IMG/VR virus record: IMGVR_UViG_3300020281_000108
Location: 1 to 27,155 of that record
Reading direction: 5' to 3' (one strand)
DNA length: 27,155 nt
DNA from: a virus
Shown: positions 7,493 through 25,182 of the stretch, piece after piece
Numbering within the stretch: position 1 is the stretch's first letter
Layout of the letters: each line of letters starts with the position of its first letter
Position numbers and translations under genes: made by a program
The notes under the pieces: model-generated
What the model saw: only the letters and a program-made list of their open reading frames with translations
The model's database searches: none
Told to the model about the DNA's origin: nothing

Positions 7493-8029
7493 TTATGTTG
7501 AAACTTCTTGAAGTGTTAATGTTGAGACAGCAGATGGATCGTTAATTCTGTCACCATCATAAGAGTTTCTATTAAGAAATCCTGTATAACCACTATTAGT
7601 AATAATCATTCTTAGTTTTACTGTAAAATTACCAGTTGAAGCTGGAGAGTGCATACAATGGAAAGTTTCTCTTGCTAAATGATAAGTGGCATCAGCACTA
7701 GCAGAACCATTGTAATGTGTTCCCCAATGGTATCTTCCTCGACTATCCCTTGCTGGCGGTTGTTGAATAATATTATTACTGCCGTCTGCTAAATACATAT
7801 AACATATATTTCCAACACTACACCAAGCAGCAGAACAAACAATAAATAATTTATTAGATGCACTTTGCATATTTATAGTTGCTGACAAGCCAGTATCCGC
7901 ACCACTTGTTGATTGAGTACTAAATGCAGAGTCAAAAGCTGAGTAAACAGTTTGTATTACACCACCACCAGTAGCACCACTTGGCAGACCACCTGTTGGA
8001 ACGATTGAATTGACTTTAAGTTGGCTCAT
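7493..8029 (-). CDS. Short fibre-like protein, copy 3 of the MSxLKxN family
   Basis: A 178-aa protein starting MSQLKVNSIVPTGGLPSG, a glycine hinge, then GGVIQTVYSAFDS and a beta-rich body ending STLTLQEVST. The N-terminal motif is shared with the 175-aa and 168-aa genes upstream, while the body differs strongly, as expected of receptor-binding variants. It has three or four cysteines (AAWCSVGNICYMY, FHCMHS), unlike its relatives. The ATG lies 2 nt after the stop of the XkdW-like gene. The receptor-binding role is inferred from family pattern and location. Confidence 0.75.
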   Translation of the reverse strand: MSQLKVNSIVPTGGLPSGATGGGVIQTVYSAFDSAFSTQSTSGADTGLSATINMQSASNKLFIVCSAAWCSVGNICYMYLADGSNNIIQQPPARDSRGRYHWGTHYNGSASADATYHLARETFHCMHSPASTGNFTVKLRMIITNSGYTGFLNRNSYDGDRINDPSAVSTLTLQEVST

Positions 8030-8031
8030 AA

Positions 8032-8352
8032 TTAACTAGGTTTTGGATTAGCGTCTTTTACCGCTTTGTTATGGGCAAAAAATGTACCTGTTGAATCTAA
8101 TTTACCAGCAAGCATATCGTCATACAACATTGCCATTTGTTCTTTCCAATCTCCATATCTTGTAGAACCAAATTGACGATCTGTTTTGTATTTAACTTTA
8201 TTTAGTTCTATTCTTGCAGCATCAACAAGAGCTTGGTCTATTTCTACTAGATTGCCTTGACCATCAAAGCAACCTACACCTTCTTCTATAATTGCAACCC
8301 TATTAGGGTCTTTATTGTATGCTAAAAAAATTGCATCGTAATCGTAAGCCAT
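8032..8352 (-). CDS. XkdW-like fibre accessory protein, copy 2
   Basis: A 106-aa protein with an N-terminal YDAIFLAYNKDPNRVAII segment, FDGQGNLVEIDQALVDAAR helix, and a C-terminal YGDWKEQMAMLYDDMLAG ... NKAVKDANPKP. The 'GDWKEQ..MLY' signature and Pro-rich end are typical of XkdW-like or tail-fibre-assembly-type phage proteins. It is paralogous to the 106-aa gene at 8855. It overlaps the upstream stop by 1 nt (TAATG) and precedes a short fibre gene by 2 nt, which suggests it acts with these fibres as chaperone or partner. Confidence 0.7.
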   Translation of the reverse strand: MAYDYDAIFLAYNKDPNRVAIIEEGVGCFDGQGNLVEIDQALVDAARIELNKVKYKTDRQFGSTRYGDWKEQMAMLYDDMLAGKLDSTGTFFAHNKAVKDANPKPS

Positions 8353-8858
8353 TAGTTTACTGAGGGTAGCTCCATTAAAATCATTCTAGACTGTGTGTGC
8401 ATAGAATTATCGCTTGCTCTCCTATTAATGGTAAATTGTCTTGAGCCATTTGGTCTGGCAACTACTCCATAAGCAACTTGAGAAGTTGTACTTATTTCGT
8501 CATCAATAATTATTGCAGTAGCACTTACACTATCTCCAGAACCCATGTTATGAAAAGCACCAGAAGTAACATTCCCAGGACTGCCAGAAGCTCCTGACCC
8601 TACTTGTAATTGTGTGGAATCTCTATAAATATCAAAACCTACATCTGCTGTATTATTAGTACTTACTAAACCAAAATTTACGATTACTAAAATACTACTG
8701 CTTGTAGAAGAAGGAGTGATATTTGTTGTTAACTGAGTAATCGTATCTCCATTACTGAGGTTTCCAGTAATAGTAGTGTGAGTATATTTAACTTGAAGTA
8801 CTCTTGAAAGTACGTTTCCAGATGTGTCAAGTAGTGCGTTTGCTTTTAATGTACTCAT
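8352..8858 (-). CDS. Short fibre-like protein, copy 2 of the MSxLKxN family
   Basis: A 168-aa protein starting MSTLKANALLDTSGNVLSRV, then a beta-rich body with NITPSSTSSSILVIVNFG, VGFDIYRDSTQLQVGSG and a terminal RMILMELPSVN. The layout (ITPxSTSSxILV, YRDST, then a final LxxMEV strand) is the same as in the 175-aa paralogue, so they share a fold. It lacks the glycine hinge of the other two. Its ATG overlaps the upstream XkdW-like stop by 4 nt. Probable fibre tip or spike. Confidence 0.75.
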   Translation of the reverse strand: MSTLKANALLDTSGNVLSRVLQVKYTHTTITGNLSNGDTITQLTTNITPSSTSSSILVIVNFGLVSTNNTADVGFDIYRDSTQLQVGSGASGSPGNVTSGAFHNMGSGDSVSATAIIIDDEISTTSQVAYGVVARPNGSRQFTINRRASDNSMHTQSRMILMELPSVN

Positions 8859-9192: not shown

Positions 9193-9221
9193 ATTATACA
9201 CGGAAGTAATCATGCTGACAC
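9193..9221 (-). promoter_or_regulatory. Sigma-70-type promoter candidate before the XkdW-like/fibre pairs
   Basis: On the minus strand TATAAT (9198-9193, full match to the -10 consensus) follows GTGTCA (9221-9216, 4 of 6 to TTGACA) with a 17-nt spacer. The predicted start lies about 10 nt before the ATG of the 106-aa gene, so the leader would be very short. The site sits in one of the few 30-nt gaps in the late block. Confidence 0.4.
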
Positions 9222-9737
9222 CTCCATACATATTATTGTTGATAGATTTCTTTGTCCATAAGTAGCACTATTAGAATCATCTACTGACCCATTGATGCGA
9301 ATATTTATACCTTGCGTGTGTGCAACTTGTACTTTATATGTGAGTGAACTTGTAGAAGATGGAGTATCTAAAAAATTCATACCTACATTTTGTGCAAAAG
9401 TATTGCCATCACCTGATATACCAGTTGAACATCTTTGCCTACTTCCATCAGAGGCACCTCTAGCAATATCTGTTGAATCTCTTACTATTTGCATTCTACC
9501 TCCATATCTGTTTGTTTCTGCTGTAACAACAGCATTTAAATAAACTAATACTAATATTTTGCTTGAAGTAGATGTTGGTGTAATAGAAACTGATAAACCA
9601 GTTACATCTACATTGCTTGTACTTGTTGTTGTGAAAACATCACCTTTAGTTGCTTGGACAACTTGAATTATTCCACCACCACCGCCTGTTGGTACACCTG
9701 CAACTGGAATTATGCTGTTGACTTTTAATGTGCTCAT
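9210..9737 (-). CDS. Short fibre-like protein, copy 1 of the MSxLKxN family
   Basis: A 175-aa protein starting MSTLKVNSIIPVAGVPTG, a polyglycine hinge, GIIQVVQATKG, then a beta-rich domain with SITPTSTSSKILVLVYLN, MQIVRDSTDIARG and a final STIICMEVSA. It is the upstream-most of three paralogues in this cluster. Proteins with the MSTLKVNxIxP start and this fold are widespread in marine phages and are annotated as virion structural proteins. It follows the 257-aa fibre by 3 nt. A receptor-binding or fibre-tip role is inferred. Confidence 0.75.
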   Translation of the reverse strand: MSTLKVNSIIPVAGVPTGGGGGIIQVVQATKGDVFTTTSTSNVDVTGLSVSITPTSTSSKILVLVYLNAVVTAETNRYGGRMQIVRDSTDIARGASDGSRQRCSTGISGDGNTFAQNVGMNFLDTPSSTSSLTYKVQVAHTQGINIRINGSVDDSNSATYGQRNLSTIICMEVSA

Positions 9738-15772: not shown

Positions 15773-16137
15773 TACGATGCTGGTTCAAATACTTGTCTAA
15801 AAGTGGCTTGTATAGTAGCTCTGTTGTTATAAGGTATTGACTTACTCCAGTTTTCGCAAACAAATTTAAAGTTTGAAGCAGTTTCTTCGGGTAAAAAACC
15901 TTCAGCAAAATCAAAACTAGCACTATCATTTGCACGAGCATCTAAAAATGTTTCGATAGTATCCGCATCTGTTTCTGAGACTTCATAAGTAAGACTGAAC
16001 TCTTTTGGATTTTGATGTTGAGCTAAACCAAATAGAAGTCTATGCTCATACCCATCAGCAAAACGAATCGTTCTAGTTAATGGTCTGGATTTTTTGCGGA
16101 TTCCGTAAGTAGGTTTTATTGAAGGGAAAGTAGCCAT
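15772..16137 (-). CDS. M-like: Lambda M-like minor tail protein
   Basis: A 121-aa protein with the M-family pattern: basic N-terminal part (YGIRKKSRPLTRTIRFADGY), QNPKEFSLTYEVSETDADTI, FLDARANDSASFDF, then a Trp-containing terminal strand region (CENWSKSIPYNNRATIQATF). Length and order (tape measure, M, L, K, I, J) match lambda-like tails. It overlaps the tape measure stop and the L-like ATG by 1 nt each. Structural role: first ring of the tail tip under the tape measure. Confidence 0.87.
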   Translation of the reverse strand: MATFPSIKPTYGIRKKSRPLTRTIRFADGYEHRLLFGLAQHQNPKEFSLTYEVSETDADTIETFLDARANDSASFDFAEGFLPEETASNFKFVCENWSKSIPYNNRATIQATFRQVFEPAS

Positions 16138-18005
16138 TATGCAAGTATTCCTCCAGGTCGTTTCTGTTGTATTAGTTCAGATTGTACCGCAGCCGAGATA
16201 AGACGACCAAGTTCTCTTCCCTGCTCTTCATCTCCTTGAACTTCTGTGCCAGATGCGTCTACATTTACTACTACAGTTGTAGAACCGCCAAGTGCATGAT
16301 TTGGTGTAATCATTCCAGATACACCTGGAGTAAACATTTCTGGGCCTCGTTCTCCTACAAGATACTGACCTCCTCCTTTTACTGGACCTCCTGCTGCACG
16401 TTTGATTGTTGAAATACCAAAAGACCCTTTCTTTAAATTTGCTCCACTGGGTATATTTGTTCCGAAAGTTGGGTCTGGTGTTGGACTAAATAAACTTCCA
16501 ATCCCACTAAATAGTGAACCAAGTAATCCTCCGCCCCCTAAAGAACCTTGTGGATTACCAAATAGTGCCATGTTAAACGCTGCGTCTATAAGTTTGTTTA
16601 AGACGTTGTTTAACATGTCGTTTAACGTGGAAGTACCACGAATCATTCCCTGGATTCCCTGTGATATGTCGGTTGCTATTGTCTGAGACATTCTTTCAAA
16701 TGCTGCTGCTGTTTCTAAAGCTAATTGTCTCTCTTTTTGTAAAGCATCTAGTTTTCTCATTTTATTAGCAAGTGCTTCTTCGTCTATTTCTATATCTCTA
16801 TCTTTAAGTTCCTGTATTTTTTGTTGTATTTCAAATTCTAGCTCAGATAAATGACCCATTTCTCTGCTTTTTTCAAGTAAAGCTATTTCACTATTTAATT
16901 GTTTTTGAGCAGCTTTATTTAAAGCATCATTTATTGCTTCAACTTCCGCTTTTGCGTCTTTTTGCTTTATAAAGAGTGTTAATGCGTCTAATGCTGCCTT
17001 TTTTTCTTCTATAGCTGCTGCTTTAGCTTCATCACTAAAAAAGTCCTTAAATCCGACTTTACCAGCGTTTTGAAATTCCGTAAATAATCTATCTTGTTCC
17101 TCATCTCCCGTTCCAAACTCTCTTTTGGCACGATCAAATGCTACATCAGTTTCTATTTGTCTAGTTAATGCACTTAAAATTCCAGATTGTTCTATAAGAT
17201 TTGCTATTCCTACTCGCATATTTAACATGAAAACACCAAAACTTGTAGTTAAATCTTGAGCCTGATCTCCAAATCTACTTAATGAGTCAACTCCATCTTT
17301 ACCTATTTGTTGAGTCATTTTTTCTCTGACTAACGCAAAAGCTGTTTCTTTATCTCCTAATTGTTCTATTAGTTTTACCTGTTTTTCAAAATTAGTTCCG
17401 ATTAAACCTAAAGACTCTATTAAAGGTGTTGTATCTTTATTAACACTATTTAAAGCCTGACCTAATTTAGCTGTTTCAATTCCAAATTGCTGAATAGGAG
17501 TGATAATAGAAGTTGCAAGTAAACCTCCTGCAAAACCTCCCATCTGGCCACCAACTGCTGATCCGATTCCACCACCTAATGCACCAGCAAGACCTACTAA
17601 TGGTCCTTGTCCAAATAACAGAGGAAATGCACCAGATATAATTGCACTACTGGCAGCATCAGAAAAACGACTTCCCCCTCCCGTACCAGTTCCTCCTGTA
17701 TTTCTACCACCACCTCCGCCTCCACCACGAGGTTTATTCATTAGATTTATTCTTCTTTTTTCAATTTCTAAAGCCTGTTTATCTACTTTTACTTGATCTT
17801 GTTTTCTTTTTAATACTTTTTGCTCTAATGCAAGCCTCTGGCCTGTCTTTCTTATTTTTTCCTGTTCATTACGCAATACAGTTCTATTAGCTCTTCCACC
17901 TTGAGCTAACTTATTTAACTTTGATATACGCTTTTCAAGATTATTTAGCTGCTTATTAACAGTCCTGGTATTCAGTTTTATATTAACTTCGTAATTAGAT
18001 GCCAC
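16137..18005 (-). CDS. Tail tape measure protein
   Basis: A 622-aa protein. Residues about 10-90 form a basic coiled coil, 92-112 are Gly-rich (PRGGGGGGGRNTGG), 115-170 are hydrophobic with glycines (possible membrane-penetrating segments), 200-480 are helical, and the end has QYLVGERGPEMFTPGVSG, a signature of tape measure proteins. At about 0.15 nm per residue (general rule for tape measures) the tail would be near 93 nm. The start codon is GTG (MASNYEVNIKL) with GAGATTA just upstream. It follows the chaperone gene, the standard place. The protein sets tail length and is later ejected. Confidence 0.92.
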   Translation of the reverse strand: MASNYEVNIKLNTRTVNKQLNNLEKRISKLNKLAQGGRANRTVLRNEQEKIRKTGQRLALEQKVLKRKQDQVKVDKQALEIEKRRINLMNKPRGGGGGGGRNTGGTGTGGGSRFSDAASSAIISGAFPLLFGQGPLVGLAGALGGGIGSAVGGQMGGFAGGLLATSIITPIQQFGIETAKLGQALNSVNKDTTPLIESLGLIGTNFEKQVKLIEQLGDKETAFALVREKMTQQIGKDGVDSLSRFGDQAQDLTTSFGVFMLNMRVGIANLIEQSGILSALTRQIETDVAFDRAKREFGTGDEEQDRLFTEFQNAGKVGFKDFFSDEAKAAAIEEKKAALDALTLFIKQKDAKAEVEAINDALNKAAQKQLNSEIALLEKSREMGHLSELEFEIQQKIQELKDRDIEIDEEALANKMRKLDALQKERQLALETAAAFERMSQTIATDISQGIQGMIRGTSTLNDMLNNVLNKLIDAAFNMALFGNPQGSLGGGGLLGSLFSGIGSLFSPTPDPTFGTNIPSGANLKKGSFGISTIKRAAGGPVKGGGQYLVGERGPEMFTPGVSGMITPNHALGGSTTVVVNVDASGTEVQGDEEQGRELGRLISAAVQSELIQQKRPGGILA

Positions 18006-18032: not shown

Positions 18033-18594
18033 TTAGCGTACCTTACGATATTGAGCTTTCTTTTTCATATCTTCATACGCTTTTTCTTCTCTTTCATTTT
18101 TTAATCTAAAATATGCACTCCAGGCATACAACTCCTCTATGGTCATATTCTTTTGTAAATGACCTAAAGTAATTCCTAAAGTTTCTGCAACGAAAAACTG
18201 TAAATATAAATAATTATCTTTATCAAGTTGTACTTTTTACGGCATCAGGGGTTGCCTCCTCGCCCACCTCCTGCATTTTTGTCATAAGTTCCAGTAATAC
18301 AGCTAAAGGTATTTCTCTTCGTAAACTTGCCTTATCTGCTTCAACAAATAATTTTTGTCCGCTTTCATCTTCGGCTTTGTTAATTATTACTTGAAGTGCA
18401 AAATCTAAACTACCCTCTTCCTGCCCTTTGTTAGCTCTCATTAGAGTAGCATTTATGGAGTCTCTATCTGCAATAGTTAAAGGTGTCCAATAAACTTTTA
18501 AAATTAGTTCTCCGTCTTTATAAATAGGGTAACTGCTTTTGCTATTTATGCTAAATGCTTTTTTTAGCTTGTCGATTGCTCTATCTGTAGGCAT
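18033..18594 (-). CDS. GT-like: Tail assembly chaperone, long frameshift form (GT-like fusion)
   Basis: Translation would read the 123-aa frame to Lys120 at AAA 18237-18235, change frame on the run of five A, and continue from GTA at 18233 for 66 more codons, beginning VQLDKDNYLYLQFFVAETLG and ending in a basic tail. Total 186 aa (187 if the shift is -2). The extension has AETLGITLGHLQKNMTIEEL and YAWSAYFRLKNEREEK, matching the T-domain pattern of chaperones. The new frame has a TAA at 18239-18237, so the switch must happen in the few codons between it and the TGA at 18225. No start codon precedes VQLDKD, so a separate gene is unlikely. G/GT frameshifting is known in tailed phages. Confidence 0.75.
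18223..18594 (-). CDS. G-like: Tail assembly chaperone, short form (G-like)
   Basis: A 123-aa protein starting MPTDRAIDKLKKAFSINSKS with VYWTPLTIADRDSINATLMR, a helical middle (LDFALQVIINKAEDESG) and IPLAVLLELMTKMQEV near the end. This layout is that of gpG-type tail assembly chaperones that coat the tape measure during tail building. It lies just before the tape measure, separated only by the frame-shifted T domain. The preceding 42-nt gap has an AT-rich 7-bp inverted repeat (18606-18628). In siphoviruses the tail tube gene normally lies just upstream; here it does not. Confidence 0.8.
   Translation of the reverse strand: MPTDRAIDKLKKAFSINSKSSYPIYKDGELILKVYWTPLTIADRDSINATLMRANKGQEEGSLDFALQVIINKAEDESGQKLFVEADKASLRREIPLAVLLELMTKMQEVGEEATPDAVKSTT
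18231..18240 (-). other. Putative programmed frameshift site
   Basis: The minus strand reads GTA AAA AGT before a TGA four codons later. A +1 slip of tRNA-Lys from AAA to the overlapping AAA re-pairs perfectly and gives GTA CAA CTT, the T-domain frame. A -2 slip gives the same frame with one more Lys. GAGGAGG lies about 16 nt upstream and could act as an internal Shine-Dalgarno stimulator. A -1 shift leads to a stop after some 20 codons and no family match. Confidence 0.65.
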
Positions 18595-24647: not shown

Positions 24648-24766
24648 TTCTTTTTCCTCTTTTTCTTAGAACGTAGCTTTTTAAGATCAGCAGCAGTAAT
24701 CTTATCCCGTGGTGGAGCAACAGCAGCTAGTTTGCGTTGCTTTGCTGAATAAGATTTCTTAGGCAT
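24644..24766 (-). CDS. Small basic 40-aa protein
   Basis: A 40-codon frame: MPKKSYSAKQRKLAAVAPPR, then DKITAADLKKLRSKKKRKKK. Thirteen Lys and four Arg against two Asp make it one of the most basic products here. The AAVAPPRDKITAADxKxLR pattern recurs, as I recall, in marine phages. It starts by overlapping the stop of the tail tube gene by 1 nt and ends in an ATGA overlap with the 55-aa gene, so it is well embedded. Function unknown; DNA or capsid binding is possible. Confidence 0.78.
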   Translation of the reverse strand: MPKKSYSAKQRKLAAVAPPRDKITAADLKKLRSKKKRKKK

Positions 24767-25182
24767 TAGACAGCAGAAGTAATATCACCAGTAGTTTGGA
24801 AACTTACTGATACAGTTGAGACATCTCCAACGGTTGAACTATATGAAGTTCCTGTAATAATTCCGTTAAAACTTAATTTTTTAGCACCTGATGTATCCAA
24901 GAAAAGGTTAAACGAAGCATCACCAGCATCTTCAGCAGTTAATATGTCTGTAATAATTTCAGCAGTATTATCTCCACTTGTAGCTGTATAAAGAAGATCA
25001 ACTGTTCCTGTAGCTGTTATTAAACTCCCTACATATTTTCTTGCTGTATCGCCATGAGCAGTACACTCAAGAGTATCTTTAACAACATCTAGTGTCCAAG
25101 AAGTCGTAGAAGCTACTGCTCCAACTGATCCAGTTCCGTTATCAAATGATACAGAGCCTTCTTCACCACGAAAAAATGCCAT
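24766..25182 (-). CDS. Probable major tail tube protein, in unusual position
   Basis: A 138-aa beta-rich protein: MAFFRGEEGSVSFDNGTGS, TSWTLDVVKDTLECTAHGDT, RKYVGSLITATGTVDLLYTA, AGDASFNLFLDTSGAKKLSF, NGIITGTSYSSTVGDVSTVS and FQTTGDITSAV. The pattern 'W-strand, DxLxxTxxGD, Y..GxxxxTGT, final FxxTG.I' is the tail tube fold of the gpV/TTP type. No other candidate for the tube lies in the tail block. It sits between TerL and portal, flanked by micro-proteins, instead of just before the chaperone. The 58-nt gap upstream may carry its own promoter (TATAAG), which would suit high expression. Confidence 0.75.
   Translation of the reverse strand: MAFFRGEEGSVSFDNGTGSVGAVASTTSWTLDVVKDTLECTAHGDTARKYVGSLITATGTVDLLYTATSGDNTAEIITDILTAEDAGDASFNLFLDTSGAKKLSFNGIITGTSYSSTVGDVSTVSVSFQTTGDITSAV

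Follow-up and report, generated by a model that had tools for sequence, protein, structure and literature searches.

How does a phage translate a tail assembly chaperone whose second domain lies in a different reading frame from the first, and in which direction would the ribosomes shift? Frameshifting in tail chaperone genes is a textbook case of recoding, and distant phages are known to shift in each of the three directions. We addressed the question at a locus of an uncultured marine phage, using a contig of 27,155 nucleotides, hereafter the window. The features under discussion are as follows.

18223 to 18594, minus strand: G open reading frame, the short product of the tail assembly chaperone gene (123 aa), from ATG at 18594 to the stop TGA at 18225-18223 (PHROG and Foldseek).
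18033 to 18236, minus strand: T domain in the +1 frame, 67 aa plus stop (translation, PHROG, alignment and pN/pS).
18033 to 18594, minus strand: predicted GT fusion of 186 aa with the junction DAVK-VQLDK (translation skipping one base).
18232 to 18240, minus strand: putative slip site GTA_AAA_AGT, the E-, P- and A-site codons (211 distinct sequences).
18233 to 18246, minus strand: GATGCCGTAAAAAG, invariant within the clade at synonymous sites (63 of 63 distinct sequences, zero column entropy, codon test).
18255 to 18261, minus strand: GAGGAGG, a Shine-Dalgarno-like candidate stimulator (codons 112-113, anti-Shine-Dalgarno duplex).
16137 to 18005, minus strand: tape measure protein gene, directly downstream of the chaperone gene (PHROG 1538, tail length tape measure, E = 5e-10).

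Identity and reading frames of the chaperone gene

G matched PHROG 344 (tail assembly chaperone, E = 1.6e-5) and PHROG 20784 (E = 2e-16), and the T domain matched PHROG 337 (tail protein, E = 2e-4) and PHROG 25875 (tail assembly chaperone, E = 0.004). A search of the PDB with the G sequence gave no meaningful match. The AlphaFold2 model of G, of moderate quality (pLDDT 62), had chains A and B of the HK97 chaperone 2OB9 as its two top PDB matches in Foldseek (probability 0.99-1.00, E = 0.012 and 0.020). Given this best match and its position just before the tape measure gene, G is a tail assembly chaperone of the lambda gpG/HK97 type. As in other members of this type, the gene lies directly upstream of the tape measure gene, and the T domain is in another frame, accessible by a shift close to where G ends. 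The usual order, in which the chaperone gene directly follows that of the major tail protein, is not a defining property of the protein and was not seen in the window. The gene that probably encodes the major tail protein (PHROG 10528, E = 2.5e-25) is at 24766-25182, between terminase and portal; unlike in lambda, it is remote from the genes for the chaperone and the tape measure protein.

The T domain aligned with the interval between G and the tape measure gene of the cyanophages KBS-S-2A, S-H1 and MED4-184/P-HS2, and T domains could be aligned throughout the whole family. T is not annotated as part of a G-T fusion in the records of KBS-S-2A (L083, 3349-3530), S-H1 (L084), S-2L (L085) and P-HS2 (L284); in those records nothing is annotated from G up to the tape measure gene, except in S-H1, where a small hypothetical gene of its own stands there.

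On the minus strand, the last stop of the +1 frame is a TAA at 18239-18237, followed by 67 open codons (18236-18036) and a TAA at 18035-18033. The preliminary description had given these limits and the G stop correctly and had confined the crossover to GTA AAA AGT ACA ACT TGA, which our reading of the frames bears out. It had also held that a −1 shift leads nowhere; indeed, the −1 frame at the junction is open for just 22 codons and encodes no T domain, and the classical −1 heptamer layout (X_XXY_YYZ with T in the −1 frame) is absent from the window. No usual start codon precedes the conserved core of the T frame; the first ATG in that frame is at about 18147.

Eighty relatives were fetched from IMG/VR with G as the query, and 79 of them had the same layout, the remaining one ending before the junction; relatives were also sought in genome contigs, where none was found. 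In the window's own clade (clade A), all 63 distinct sequences that reach the junction share the arrangement. Their pN/pS was 0.15 for G and 0.19 for T in its own frame, compared with 1.8 and 1.2 for the T region in the two remaining frames; purifying selection acts on the T frame. Since the arrangement is kept in 63 distinct close relatives, T is under purifying selection and T aligns family-wide, these sequences place it far beyond chance. The locus very probably represents a chaperone gene of the lambda G/GT type, with a long product predicted to arise by programmed +1 ribosomal frameshifting.

The proposed slip site and the alternatives to a +1 shift

To define the site, we considered a set of 211 distinct related sequences from several lineages with the form NUN_AAA_AGN. 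Besides clade A, these include clade B (about 70 distinct sequences near the marine virus AG-345-A17), with TTR_AAA_AGC and T in +1, and a third clade with ATG_AAA_AGC, likewise with T in +1. In the phage records covered, AG-345-A17, a single-cell contig, is the sole +1 member, and no cultured phage carries the arrangement. T is in the +1 frame and the P-site codon is AAA in all 211. The A-site codon is AGC in 204, AGT in 5, and AGA and AGG in 1 each; the E-site codon is always NUN (ATG, GTA, TTA, TTG, CTG or CTC), and the 0-frame stop follows 2 to 9 codons later. The A run counts four bases in 107 sequences and five in 104, so the shared core is AAAA, and only a +1 slip of tRNA-Lys from AAA to AAA accounts for all of them. 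The preliminary description had proposed just this slip on AAAA, and re-pairing one base downstream is complete in 211 of 211. It had suggested that an alignment of homologs would reveal whether the arrangement and the A run are conserved: the +1 arrangement is kept, and the length of the run is not. Its +1 reading is upheld; the conserved rare AGC and the use of −1 by relatives were not visible from the single sequence.

In these phages AGC is used 3.9 to 7.6 times per thousand codons, compared with 37 to 43 for GCA, the codon that mostly stands in the +1 frame. Where nearly all relatives have AGC, the window carries AGT, a codon that is not rare, and the codon entering in the +1 frame would be GTA here and GCN in most relatives. 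The GC of AGC also begins the Ala codon of the T frame. Conservation of AGC may thus have two causes and, the codon being doubly coding, is not purely a pausing signal. With NUN in the E site, pairing there is probably weak, and weak E-site pairing is reported to favor +1 shifting in prfB (PMC5009743; PMC6321510); the constancy of NUN is inseparable from selection for Val, Leu or Met at that position. With moderate confidence, we ascribe a role in the shift to AGC and to the E codon. The site appears to fit the forward motifs described for PRFect, three or four equal bases with a more favorable A-site codon in +1 (PMC10885494).

In the proposed mechanism, the majority of ribosomes would pass through AAA AGT and stop at TGA 18225-18223, yielding G. 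A minority would pause with tRNA-Lys on AAA (18237-18235) and AGY, usually the rare AGC, in the A site, from where tRNA-Lys could slip one base downstream to the overlapping AAA at 18236-18234 with full re-pairing. A common codon, GTA or GCN, would then enter, and T would be translated to give GT. By analogy with lambda, G might bind the tape measure protein and T might recruit the tail tube protein. Both the making of the fusion and its level are predictions from the sequences.

The same destination frame would be reached by a −2 shift, as used in Mu and arteriviruses (PMC5009743), and the product would carry one extra Lys. Such a shift would seat tRNA-Lys on UAA at the GTA and TTA sites, on UGA at TTG, ATG and CTG, and on UCA at the CTC site of L294, none of which it normally reads. 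There is thus no −2 pairing common to the 211 sequences, whereas the +1 pairing is perfect in each. This argues strongly for +1 as the direction and leaves −2 a distinctly improbable route. Slippage of the RNA polymerase on the A run, giving a fused mRNA, is less probable still: a run is present and some genes do use transcriptional slippage (PMC5009743), but it comprises just four or five A of unconserved length, whereas the codon that follows is conserved, and at this position close relatives have a classical −1 heptamer for ribosomal shifting. It is similarly hard to credit that T is made as a separate protein by internal initiation. In clade A, GAGGAGG does stand 9 nucleotides ahead of an invariant T-frame ATG (18245-18243), as a start site might, but this ATG is followed by CCG TAA and opens an ORF of two codons; clade B has no such ATG, and the T core is without a usual upstream start codon. 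Finally, homopolymers are error-prone and one A fewer would fuse the frames, which had led the preliminary description to consider a base error in a plain in-frame fusion. The same five A recur in L003, a contig that was assembled independently and whose G protein is identical, other relatives of the window also carry GTAAAAAG, many independently assembled contigs have the identical site, sites with four A share the same arrangement, and no in-frame G-T fusion occurs among the relatives examined. An error is thereby rendered vanishingly unlikely and, like −2, largely excluded.

Constraint around the site and upstream elements

The putative +1 slip site is set within a stretch of unusual synonymous constraint. 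In the 63 distinct clade A sequences, GAT GCC GTA AAA AGY and the upstream GAG GAG show no synonymous change, one AGT excepted, whereas most other conserved G codons do vary synonymously. We scored codons that are degenerate and whose amino acid never changes, contrasting those up to nine codons from the site with those elsewhere. In clade A, 7 of 7 codons near the site were frozen, GAGGAGG among them, compared with 1 of 25 elsewhere (hypergeometric p = 2e-6, shared ancestry ignored); in clade B, the figures were 5 of 8 and 0 of 27.

Three further sequence features were considered. In the T frame, nearly all sequences have a stop codon immediately ahead of AAA, but this was discarded as a required signal given its absence from L294 (CTC_AAA_AGT). 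AAA AGC pairs elsewhere in the genomes numbered 5 against 9.3 expected in clade A and 13 against 16.3 in clade B; these counts are small, and avoidance was dropped as proof of intrinsic slipperiness. AAA AGC is found in frame once more early in G, at 18535-18540 (AGC AAA AGC AGT), with no NUN before it, so AAA AGC by itself is presumably not enough.

The GAGGAGG stretch at 18261-18255 is present as the preliminary description had noted, at 17 nucleotides from AAA 18237-18235 and not 16. Codons 112-113 are GAG GAG in 63 of 63 clade A sequences, whereas other Glu codons vary, and the duplex with the anti-Shine-Dalgarno sequence, at about −12 kcal/mol, is the strongest within 60 nucleotides upstream. 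Clade B has AAGGAGGT-like sequences further upstream (interval starting at about −31; about −11 kcal/mol), and there the Shine-Dalgarno-like stretch is kept despite differing codons. The suggestion that GAGGAGG stimulates the shift finds support only as selective constraint. Its spacing fits neither textbook arrangement, which is 8 to 11 nucleotides for −1 stimulation and adjacent to the E site for +1 (PMC6321510); a prfB-type Shine-Dalgarno next to the E site is not present, as GAGGAGG ends 17 nucleotides from the P codon.

Clade B also carries a nearly invariant GAGGCTAAAGCC, which can form the hairpin GGC-UAAA-GCC (consensus fold z of −3 to −4). Two of its members, L144 and L145, have the variant AGC-GAAA-GCU, with an A-U for one G-C pair and a GNRA loop; the replacement is probably a single event. 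A role of the clade B hairpin in shifting is plausible by analogy, since, in a bacterial system, upstream hairpins that adjoin the E site promote +1 shifting and dampen −1 shifting (PMC6321510). A corresponding hairpin in clade A was rejected as not significant (z of −0.6 to −1.5). Altogether, these elements hint weakly that GAGGAGG and, in the sister clade, the small hairpin might stimulate the shift. No conserved downstream pseudoknot or stem was found between +6 and +90 in clades A and B. Sites of +1 shifting need no downstream structure.

Shift direction within the family and known systems

In the cultured relatives KBS-S-2A and S-H1 and in uncultured kin, A_AAA_AAC precedes the same T domain, which there lies in the −1 frame. 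G and T in KBS-S-2A and S-H1, as in MED4-184/P-HS2, where T is also in the −1 frame, are homologous to those of the window, in the same place and with near-identical codons (GTA/GCA AAA AAC), so both directions occur in one family with homologous flanks. The G-domain tree requires three changes of direction, or three to five over bootstraps; the starred branches force three changes on the first tree and two without the junction residues. With few columns and long branches, the count is inexact and gains are indistinguishable from losses. Aligned at the junction, the DNA of KBS-S-2A and of L196 reads GTA AAA AAC and ATG AAA AGC, respectively, plus 2 nucleotides. The family appears to have undergone about three changes of direction, one of its lineages seemingly by AAC to AGC and a 2-nucleotide indel. 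L296 and L297 are −1 members (A_AAA_AAC) whose G is 58% identical to that of +1 phages around L200, possibly representing one more switch.

Like the gene studied here, lambda gpG/gpGT and its relatives combine a short G with a shifted T just ahead of the tape measure gene, and the lambda shift also falls a few codons ahead of the G stop; unlike it, lambda shifts −1 at a heptamer, and here the predicted shift is +1 at AAA_AGC. Tail chaperone shifts are known in −1, −2 and +1, the last predicted for the haloarchaeal virus HSTV-2 according to a passage of PMC5009743; this is an archaeal myovirus, likened by direction of shift only. In SPP1, the chaperone shifts −1 and the tail tube protein +1 (PMC6316719). 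As at CUU_UGA of prfB and CCC_UGA/UAA of Listeria and SPP1, a single P-site tRNA would slip +1 at a possibly slow A-site codon, in prfB likewise with weak E-site pairing; those sites pause on a stop, whereas the present site has a sense codon in the A site, with the 0-frame stop 2 to 9 codons off. Influenza A PA-X (UCC_UUU_CGU), as treated in passages of PMC5009743 and PMC3498833, shares the +1 slip, the homopolymeric P codon before a sense codon and the E-site influence; it is non-homologous and read by eukaryotic ribosomes.

The class of +1 chaperone shifts has precedents; what looks new is this site, together with its possible stimulators and the switching of direction. A literature search, which did not extend to the 2004 survey by Xu and colleagues, found no description of the slip site or the family, so priority is uncertain. 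More tentatively, and with slightly less than even confidence, we propose that NUN_AAA_AGC is a compact bacterial +1 signal on a sense codon, that it arose more than once from A_AAA_AAC, or the reverse, by AAC/AGC exchange and a 2-nucleotide indel, and that it is helped by a Shine-Dalgarno-like stretch and, in one clade, a mini-hairpin in an undescribed spacing. If so, the direction of a programmed shift could be switched easily with the two-product scheme retained. This is an unusually clear case of direction switching inside one gene family, with the step between −1 and +1 readable in nearly aligned DNA and testable by swapping a few bases, and the 211 distinct +1 sites are a deep natural data set on what a sense-codon +1 signal needs in bacteria.

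Elsewhere in the window, three small late genes (7493-8029, 8352-8858 and 9210-9737) have similar starts (MSxLK...). Two of them, when compared, were 48% identical at the N-terminus, and two of the three match the C-terminus of a tail fiber family, which looks like a repeated attachment-protein module.
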